DNA of 33,160 bases. Source: Candidatus Daviesbacteria bacterium RIFCSPHIGHO2_01_FULL_41_45 (GTDB taxonomy: Bacteria; Patescibacteriota; Microgenomatia; Daviesbacterales; UBA10151). Under the pieces are notes generated by a model. It saw only the letters and a program-made list of their open reading frames with translations. It was not told the DNA's origin and did no database searches. Shown here piece after piece: positions 1,472-3,369 of the stretch (its first letter is position 1; each line of letters starts with the position of its first letter). The position numbers and the translations under genes were made by a program. The stretch covers positions 1 to 33,160 of the forward strand of contig MFCS01000012.1 of NCBI GenBank assembly GCA_001776975.1. The letters are read 5' to 3'.

Positions 1472-2614
1472 TCACTCTTTTTTCTCTTCTGGATCTGTTG
1501 CTGTATCTTCAGGAGTTACTGCTGGATTATCAGCGATTGGAGTAGCCATCTCTTTATTTATCTCTTTTTCCTCCGGCTTAGCTGTCGGAAATGGTTGTCT
1601 CACCGAGCCATCACCCATACCTTCAATATCAATTTTGTATCCAGTTAATTTAGCTGCCAGTCTAACGTTTTGACCACCTCTACCGATCGCTAAAGATAGC
1701 TGGGAATCAGAGACTCTAACCTTAGCAATTTTTTCTTTGGGATCAGCGATAGTGACCTCAACATCTTTGGCCGGGGATAAACTTGAGGCAATAAACCGGG
1801 TTGGTTCATCAGAGTAGGAGATAATATCAATTTTTTCCTCCCCCAACTCTTGCATAACAGCTTGTACCCTCACCCCTTTTTGTCCAACCAGAGATCCCAC
1901 TGGATCTACTCCATCTTGAGTAGAGATAGCAGCTAACTTAGTCCTACCCCCAGCCTCACGAGCAATTATTTTAATCTCTACTGAACCACTTTGAATCTCT
2001 GGAACCTCTATAGCAAAAAGTCCTTTAACAAATTGGGGATCAGCCCGGGAGACCACCACCTCTGGACCACGCCTACCCTCTCTAATCTCCTTAATATAGA
2101 CCTTTAGTCTTTGCCCCTGATGATAATACTCATCCCTCGTCTGCTCCATCTGTGGCATAACACCCTCTGCCCGCCCCAAATCTACAAACCAACTATTCCC
2201 TTCCTGACGGGACATAGTACAAGAGATGACCGAACCAACTTTTTTCTCATACTCTTCTAACATGGCCCCTTTTTCAGCCTCATACAGTTTTTGCATAATC
2301 ACCTGTTTGGCAGTTTGGGCAGCAATTCTGGCAAAACCTGGAGGAGTTACATTTTCCTCACCATGTAAAATGGAGATCTCTCCACTAACAGCATCTATTT
2401 TGGCCGTAAAAGTTCCATCATCTTCTGCAGGAACTTCCTCTCCTCGTAAAGAGAGGTCTTTTCTATAGGCAGCTAGGGCAGCAGTTTCAATAGCATCAAT
2501 CACCACACTAACATCTACCCCTTTCTCAGAGGCAATCTGGTTTAAAGCTGCAGCAAATTCAGTTCTGGCTTGTACTGGCATATTTATTAAAAAAGGCGGG
2601 TCACCCCACCTCAC
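1472..2614 (-). CDS. nusA: Transcription termination/antitermination factor NusA (S1 and KH domains). Start is either GTG 2614 or ATG 2581
   Basis: ORF with NusA N-terminal domain, S1 (GSVISCTMSRQEGNSWFVDLGRAEGVMPQMEQ) and KH regions (DPVGSLVGQKGVRVQAVMQELGEEKIDIISYS; SLAIGRGGQNVRLAAKLTGYKIDI); directly upstream of infB. Confidence 0.95.
   Translation of the reverse strand: MRWGDPPFLINMPVQARTEFAAALNQIASEKGVDVSVVIDAIETAALAAYRKDLSLRGEEVPAEDDGTFTAKIDAVSGEISILHGEENVTPPGFARIAAQTAKQVIMQKLYEAEKGAMLEEYEKKVGSVISCTMSRQEGNSWFVDLGRAEGVMPQMEQTRDEYYHQGQRLKVYIKEIREGRRGPEVVVSRADPQFVKGLFAIEVPEIQSGSVEIKIIAREAGGRTKLAAISTQDGVDPVGSLVGQKGVRVQAVMQELGEEKIDIISYSDEPTRFIASSLSPAKDVEVTIADPKEKIAKVRVSDSQLSLAIGRGGQNVRLAAKLTGYKIDIEGMGDGSVRQPFPTAKPEEKEINKEMATPIADNPAVTPEDTATDPEEKKE
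2589..2610 (-). terminator. Intrinsic terminator/attenuator: GGTGGG-GTGA-CCCGCC-TTTTTT
   Basis: Minus strand: 6-bp stem (2610-2605 with 2600-2595, one G-U pair), GNRA-type GTGA loop, then six T. It lies 22 nt past the DUF4389 stop and inside the extended nusA reading frame. Confidence 0.75.
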
Positions 2615-2620
2615 AGAGAT

Positions 2621-2649
2621 ATTGTAGTGATCTAAGGGGAGTTAGTCAA
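2621..2649 (-). promoter_or_regulatory. Putative nusA-infB promoter TTGACT-N17-TACAAT
   Basis: -35 TTGACT (2649-2644), 17-bp spacer, -10 TACAAT (2626-2621), then 6 nt to GTG at 2614. Confidence 0.65.
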
Positions 2650-3369
2650 GTTGGGGCTGGCATCAGGTATGAAAAATCCTGCAAAACCCAGCATTAAAAG
2701 TAGGCCCATGAAGACTAGTTTGGCAGTCTTGTGGTTCATAGAGATATACAAACTAGGATACTCATCCGATAACCCGGACAGATAAGCCCACATGCTAAGT
2801 TCCACTCTTTCGCTATCTCTTGTTAATTCATAAATCCACTCAGGATACCTTCCTTTAAATAGAACCCAAAACCAAGCTAGAATATTTACCGTGAACCTGC
2901 TCGTCTCATCTAGAATATAATGATATACGCCGACGGGCATAATTAAAATCAATCTCATTAAGCCTCCAACCACCGGCAAGGCAAATAATCGACTGGGGTT
3001 TTGAGGGATAGGAATATCTAAAGTAAACCTGTCATCAACTTTGAAATCAAACCCTGGGTACCGATCGGTAATACCTAAAAAGTAGAATTGCATCTTTAGG
3101 GATAATTTCATTAAACTTAGGTTCATCTCATAAGCATATTGCCAATATGTACCTTTAAATAAAACCACGAAGGAATTGATAATATCAATGAATAATAAAT
3201 AAATTCCAACAAAAAACAAGACAATTAAAACCGGAATAACTGCAATAATTTTCACCAAGCCTCCGATCAATGGGACAGCGTAAAATCTGTTAGGGTGATT
3301 AATATTCTCAACTATTAGCTGAGGATAAACCCTATCTTTGTTAAATAACCAACTAATAAATTTATTCAT
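2632..3369 (-). CDS. DUF4389-like membrane protein with two tandem repeats
   Basis: Two similar halves: NHPNRFYAVPLIGGLVK...FKGTYWQYAYEMN...YFLGITDRYPGF and QNPSRLFALPVVGGLMR...FKGRYPEWIYELT...YLSGLSDEYPSL. Confidence 0.7.
   Translation of the reverse strand: MNKFISWLFNKDRVYPQLIVENINHPNRFYAVPLIGGLVKIIAVIPVLIVLFFVGIYLLFIDIINSFVVLFKGTYWQYAYEMNLSLMKLSLKMQFYFLGITDRYPGFDFKVDDRFTLDIPIPQNPSRLFALPVVGGLMRLILIMPVGVYHYILDETSRFTVNILAWFWVLFKGRYPEWIYELTRDSERVELSMWAYLSGLSDEYPSLYISMNHKTAKLVFMGLLLMLGFAGFFIPDASPNLTNSP

Follow-up and report, generated by a model that had tools for sequence, protein, structure and literature searches.

What does a terminator-like hairpin do between the promoter of nusA and its start codon? 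Such a hairpin stands in the window analyzed here, a 33,160-nucleotide stretch from a 685-kb genome in 34 contigs, whose minus strand carries dnaK, dnaJ, a DUF4389 gene, nusA and an infB-like frame in that order. The first-pass annotation had proposed an attenuator between the nusA promoter and nusA, opened by a ribosome initiating on a 5′ GUG. Our analysis retains the first part and abandons the second: the terminator-like hairpin is real, and its best interpretation is as the rimP-leader attenuator described by Naville and Gautheret (2010), which in the absence of RimP stands directly before nusA; its control is probably autogenous. The locus comprises the following features:

2644..2649, minus strand: −35 element TTGACT of the nusA promoter, within the 3′ end of the DUF4389 gene; the same promoter type occurs in nearly all family members
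2621..2626, minus strand: −10 element TACAAT, with a 17-nt spacer from the −35
2612..2614, minus strand: predicted transcription start (about G2614) with GTG at 2614-2612, six bases after the −10 and placed by −10 spacing only; relatives do not keep this GTG as an initiation codon
2595..2610, minus strand: putative attenuator hairpin GGUGGG-GUGA-CCCGCC (5′ arm GGTGGG 2610-2605, loop GTGA 2604-2601, 3′ arm CCCGCC 2600-2595), its GGG/CCC core invariant among relatives
2589..2594, minus strand: U6 (T6) tract, completing the intrinsic-terminator signature
1472..2581, minus strand: nusA, 369 aa, ATG at 2581-2579, with an infB-like reading frame downstream
2632..3369, minus strand: gene for a DUF4389 protein upstream of nusA, on the same strand here; this neighbor position is not conserved

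Promoter, spacer, hairpin, U6 tract and nusA ATG were thus all found where they had originally been placed. The start site and termination at the nusA leader are both predictions from the DNA. The nusA promoter scores 10/12, joint best of 14 promoters in 6 kb, and the leader hairpin tops the list of terminator-like sites in the first 6 kb of the window. Folding of the 28 nt that begin at the predicted start gives −14.1 kcal/mol (z = −3.9), a value equaled by 0/200 shuffles. The predicted start lies about 33 nt from the nusA ATG. The gap between the U tract and this ATG is just 7 nt, so that transcripts entering nusA from upstream must also cross the hairpin.

Conservation was assessed in 45 genomes of the family, in all of which NusA was found and the DNA ahead of it was read; an order-level search gave the same 45. 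A hairpin with a T tract precedes nusA in every one of them. The GGG/CCC core and the GG/CC outer pairs are invariant across the 45 hairpins. A promoter of the TTGACT-17-TAAAAT type lies ahead of the hairpin in nearly all members, and in the aligned nusA upstream regions promoter and hairpin are kept together, the joint conservation to which the first-pass annotation had looked.

The spacing on either side of the hairpin is more variable. The −10 element lies 25-32 nt from the hairpin in 34 of the 43 family members scored, and the hairpin is at most 15 nt from the nusA ATG in about half of the family but 60-185 nt from it in 16/45 relatives. These longer stretches (including L012, L014, L017, L019, L021, L023, L029, L031, L094 and L105-L108) are in some cases rich in inverted repeats and alike between genomes, and may represent small mobile or palindromic elements. 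Separately, a purine-rich AAGG/AGGA-type stretch occurs between the −10 and the hairpin, 4-22 nt ahead of the latter, at family and class loci; it is present in 34/69 leaders, against a shuffled mean of 17 and maximum of 27, and the segment that would hold it is absent from the window.

The window stands out by its short spacing between promoter and hairpin. Its hairpin begins about 5 nt from the predicted start, and 8 nt separate the −10 from the pairing region, where most relatives have about 25. Comparably short spacings occur in four other family genomes (G010, L025; G042 and G043, L104 and L097; G044, L024) and in some other families. Termination by a polymerase this near its start is itself a prediction, and is a point against the attenuator reading for the window.

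The motif is restricted to nusA. An exact pattern (GGTGGG-N3-8-CCCRCC, then TTTT within 6 nt) was searched across the 45 whole family genomes and occurs in 42, at nusA only; in the remaining three the hairpin at nusA has a tail that differs slightly. Genome-wide controls comprised 400 kb of one relative (G029) together with pattern and model searches of whole genomes. By a rule accepting any terminator-like hairpin in the 170 nt ahead of a gene, 14 of 341 G029 genes were positive, as were 7 of the 103 with a divergent neighbor, whereas the same rule applied to nusA of the family returned 44/45. Scans for the GGG/CCC core gave 0/30 in the nusA body and about 1% in shuffled upstream DNA; the reverse-complement count (29) was not used as a control, the stem being nearly self-complementary.

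Two further observations come from the G029 stretch. Terminator-like hairpins closely precede rpoB, fusA, tuf and genes for ribosomal proteins (S10, L3) at about 235-261 kb of contig C1 (L120-L122), the genes being named by inspection of protein starts; these hairpins suggest that other genes of transcription and translation also have leader attenuators. At G029:C1:362820-362840 (L127, about 2820), a hairpin AACCTCCCACAAGGGAGGTT-TTTTTT immediately precedes the start codon ATG of a 266-aa gene whose upstream neighbor is divergent. This is the layout of the nusA leader with another sequence.

Outside the family, the class was sampled with 60 genomes from 32 families. The GGG/CCC core was identified in 37 of these genomes and 21 of the families (the scan gave 38/60, of which L131 was judged spurious and dropped; scan label f19b denotes genome G061, assigned to f18). 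Among the 22 class genomes without this core, nine carry a different terminator-like hairpin, and in several families the sequence has been replaced by an unrelated hairpin with Ts still following. Pair counts reveal changes that preserve pairing at stem positions 4 to 7. Some class families (f16, f5, f13 and f36) have no hairpin at nusA, and the hairpin is therefore dispensable. In f16, f5 and f36 (L143-L145, L179-L181), where the hairpin is missing, a −10-like element lies very near the nusA ATG and the gene looks near-leaderless. Beyond the class, a terminator-like hairpin precedes nusA in 18 of 40 sampled genomes, several with AAGTGGG...CCCACTT, although start sites there are less certain. 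No relative was found in viral contigs with NusA.

Could the hairpin serve the nusA mRNA without terminating its synthesis, as a 5′ stabilizer or translation element that protects the 5′ end or provides a U-rich ribosome site? The short leaders invite this reading, since in the window and several relatives the hairpin lies within about 10 nt of the start site, and in about half of the family it lies close to the ATG. The usual distance from the −10 is considerably greater, however, and hairpin and U tract are both retained where they are far from the ATG. Where an unrelated hairpin has been swapped in, Ts still follow it. We regard this alternative as unlikely.

It is very unlikely that the hairpin does nothing more than terminate the dnaK-dnaJ-DUF4389 operon, the nusA promoter lying before it by chance. 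A terminator of the upstream operon alone was the simpler reading offered in the first-pass annotation. In the window the upstream gene runs in the same direction as nusA and stops 50 nt short of its ATG, and the hairpin can also end that operon. The upstream gene changes among relatives, however, while the hairpin stays with nusA in all 45, nearly always together with the promoter. In at least 18/45 family genomes the neighbor is a divergent ORF of at least 182 aa, so that there is no upstream transcript to end; by sequence inspection these neighbors include a formate-tetrahydrofolate ligase (L102), a P-type ATPase (L013) and an SPFH-like protein (L018). The changing neighbor, in these genomes a long divergent gene, indicates that the hairpin belongs to nusA, although in the window it may additionally end the dnaJ operon.

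It is extremely improbable that translation initiated on the 5′ GUG carries a ribosome through the hairpin in the NusA frame, melting the stem and preventing termination: the frame GTG...MRWGDPPFLIN-M is open in the window from the predicted start to the ATG, and one relative (L013) has an in-frame ATG just 5′ of its hairpin, but maintenance of the frame across relatives is hardly above chance, the nusA frame being open through the hairpin in 19/45 family genomes against 14 and 14 for the two wrong frames, and in 15/37 against 17 and 12 in other class families. Only 8/45 offer a start codon in frame at the stem or ahead of it, several of these being GTG inside the stem itself, and the 16 relatives with long gaps between hairpin and ATG also speak against the proposal. 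On these frame counts, a leaderless-ribosome model is not supported, though for the window genome by itself it keeps a slight probability.

The preferred reading, an attenuator in the leader of the nusA operon, gains a candidate effector from what the lineage lacks. Searches for RimP (PF02576) gave no match in any of the 45 family genomes or the 154 phylum genomes, and detected it in 10/14 control genomes. The leader persists without rimP, and RimP is therefore an unlikely effector in this phylum, with NusA the natural candidate. The choice between RimP and NusA as regulator was left open by the 2010 paper (PMC2965389). A leader kept where RimP is gone thus provides a natural experiment, one that points to NusA rather than RimP.

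Taken together, we consider it likely that the element is a leader attenuator of the rimP-leader kind ahead of nusA, in a lineage where RimP is undetected, and that NusA most likely sets the terminated fraction. RNA polymerase starting from TTGACT/TACAAT, or reading in from upstream, would make the GGUGGG-CCCGCC hairpin and its U tract before reaching nusA. Part of the transcripts would end at the U tract, and the rest would continue into nusA-infB. NusA, favoring termination at such hairpins, would most likely determine this division, such that more NusA yields less nusA mRNA. By analogy, the most likely form of control is autogenous attenuation in which NusA strengthens termination in its own leader. 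A candidate antiterminator, formed by leader pairing with the loop and 3′ arm, was rejected: its mean score of 6.14, compared with 5.89 for shuffled leaders, falls within the shuffled range.

A broader view may be offered tentatively, and we hold it as possible but somewhat short of probable. The leader may be a very old autogenous switch, common to Patescibacteria and other phyla, in which NusA recognizes a UGGG/CCCR stem. Such a switch would have outlasted rimP, so that RimP could not be its effector in the phylum, and in several lineages would have moved within a few bases of the start, releasing RNAs of only about 26 nt. The findings extend the most widespread predicted bacterial attenuator to Patescibacteria, where regulation is little known. 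The family alignment also supplies natural variants, some with the hairpin abutting the promoter, that could be taken straight into termination assays in vitro.

Two known systems invite comparison. In B. subtilis, NusA is reported to control its own synthesis by stimulating termination in the leader (cited in PMC12288461). Both systems place an intrinsic terminator in the leader of a NusA-encoding operon; NusA dependence is reported for B. subtilis, whereas in the window organism it is what we infer. The leaders also differ in length, at about 180 nt in B. subtilis (PMC2965389) and about 33 nt from predicted start to ATG in the window.

The closer counterpart is the rimP-leader, a short terminator built on a GGGc(...)gCCC stem; it precedes rimP-nusA-infB and is specific to that operon (Naville and Gautheret 2010, PMC2965389). 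Among predicted attenuators it is the most ubiquitous, its proposed effector is NusA, and it sits 4-130 nt from the first gene of the operon (PMC2965389). Hairpins of the rimP-leader kind were also retrieved here at Nitrospirae, Deltaproteobacteria, Latescibacterota, Coriobacteriales and Burkholderiales-type loci, and Pfam named the downstream gene RimP in 6/6 tested.

Fourteen rimP-leader hairpins of other bacteria, one of which (L052) precedes nusA and not rimP, were used to build a 32-nt covariance model (R1). The model, which contains no Patescibacteria sequence, ranks the nusA hairpin first in the 33 kb of the window (16.8 bits, E 0.11; runner-up 12.2 bits). Over the 45 whole family genomes, 22 of its 30 matches at E ≤0.5 fall on the nusA leader and 8 elsewhere, and in the G029 stretch the nusA site ranks second. 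Single E-values are modest, as expected for a 32-nt model, and the weight of this result lies in recurrence at one site.

Rfam takes a different view of the element. RF01770 (rimP; gathering threshold 47 bits) has no match in the window and none listed at nusA of family relatives, and a scan of the window with Rfam returned nothing at gathering level and one chance match at E 6. RF01770 also misses short hairpins ahead of Pfam-confirmed rimP in several phyla (L049, L055, L060, L066, L074). Named after the same operon leader, it is a 102-nt model that apparently covers a longer form, and the general short form of the rimP-leader appears not to be covered by Rfam.

Three features set the window hairpin apart from the rimP-leader. 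RimP is absent and the hairpin sits directly on nusA; it abuts the predicted start site; and the c...g closing pair is not kept (GGG-GUGA-CCC), most relatives having GGGC...UCCC. That pair is printed in lower case in PMC2965389, which we take to mean less conserved, and the closing position (pair 12-19) also varies in rimP hairpins of other phyla. The likenesses are more extensive. Both are short terminators with a G-rich 5′ arm, a C-rich 3′ arm, an invariant GGG/CCC and a U tract. Both head the nusA-infB operon and are not seen at other genes, the motif being absent from other terminators across the 45 whole genomes. As to position, nusA and the infB-like frame are in place and the hairpin distance fits, but the first gene is nusA and not rimP, RimP being absent from the phylum sample. 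A motif this short does not distinguish common descent from convergence on the same recognition. The rimP-leader of other phyla, AAGUGGG...CCCRCUUUUU, is nearly identical to the family hairpin, AAGGUGGG...CCCRCCUUUUU.
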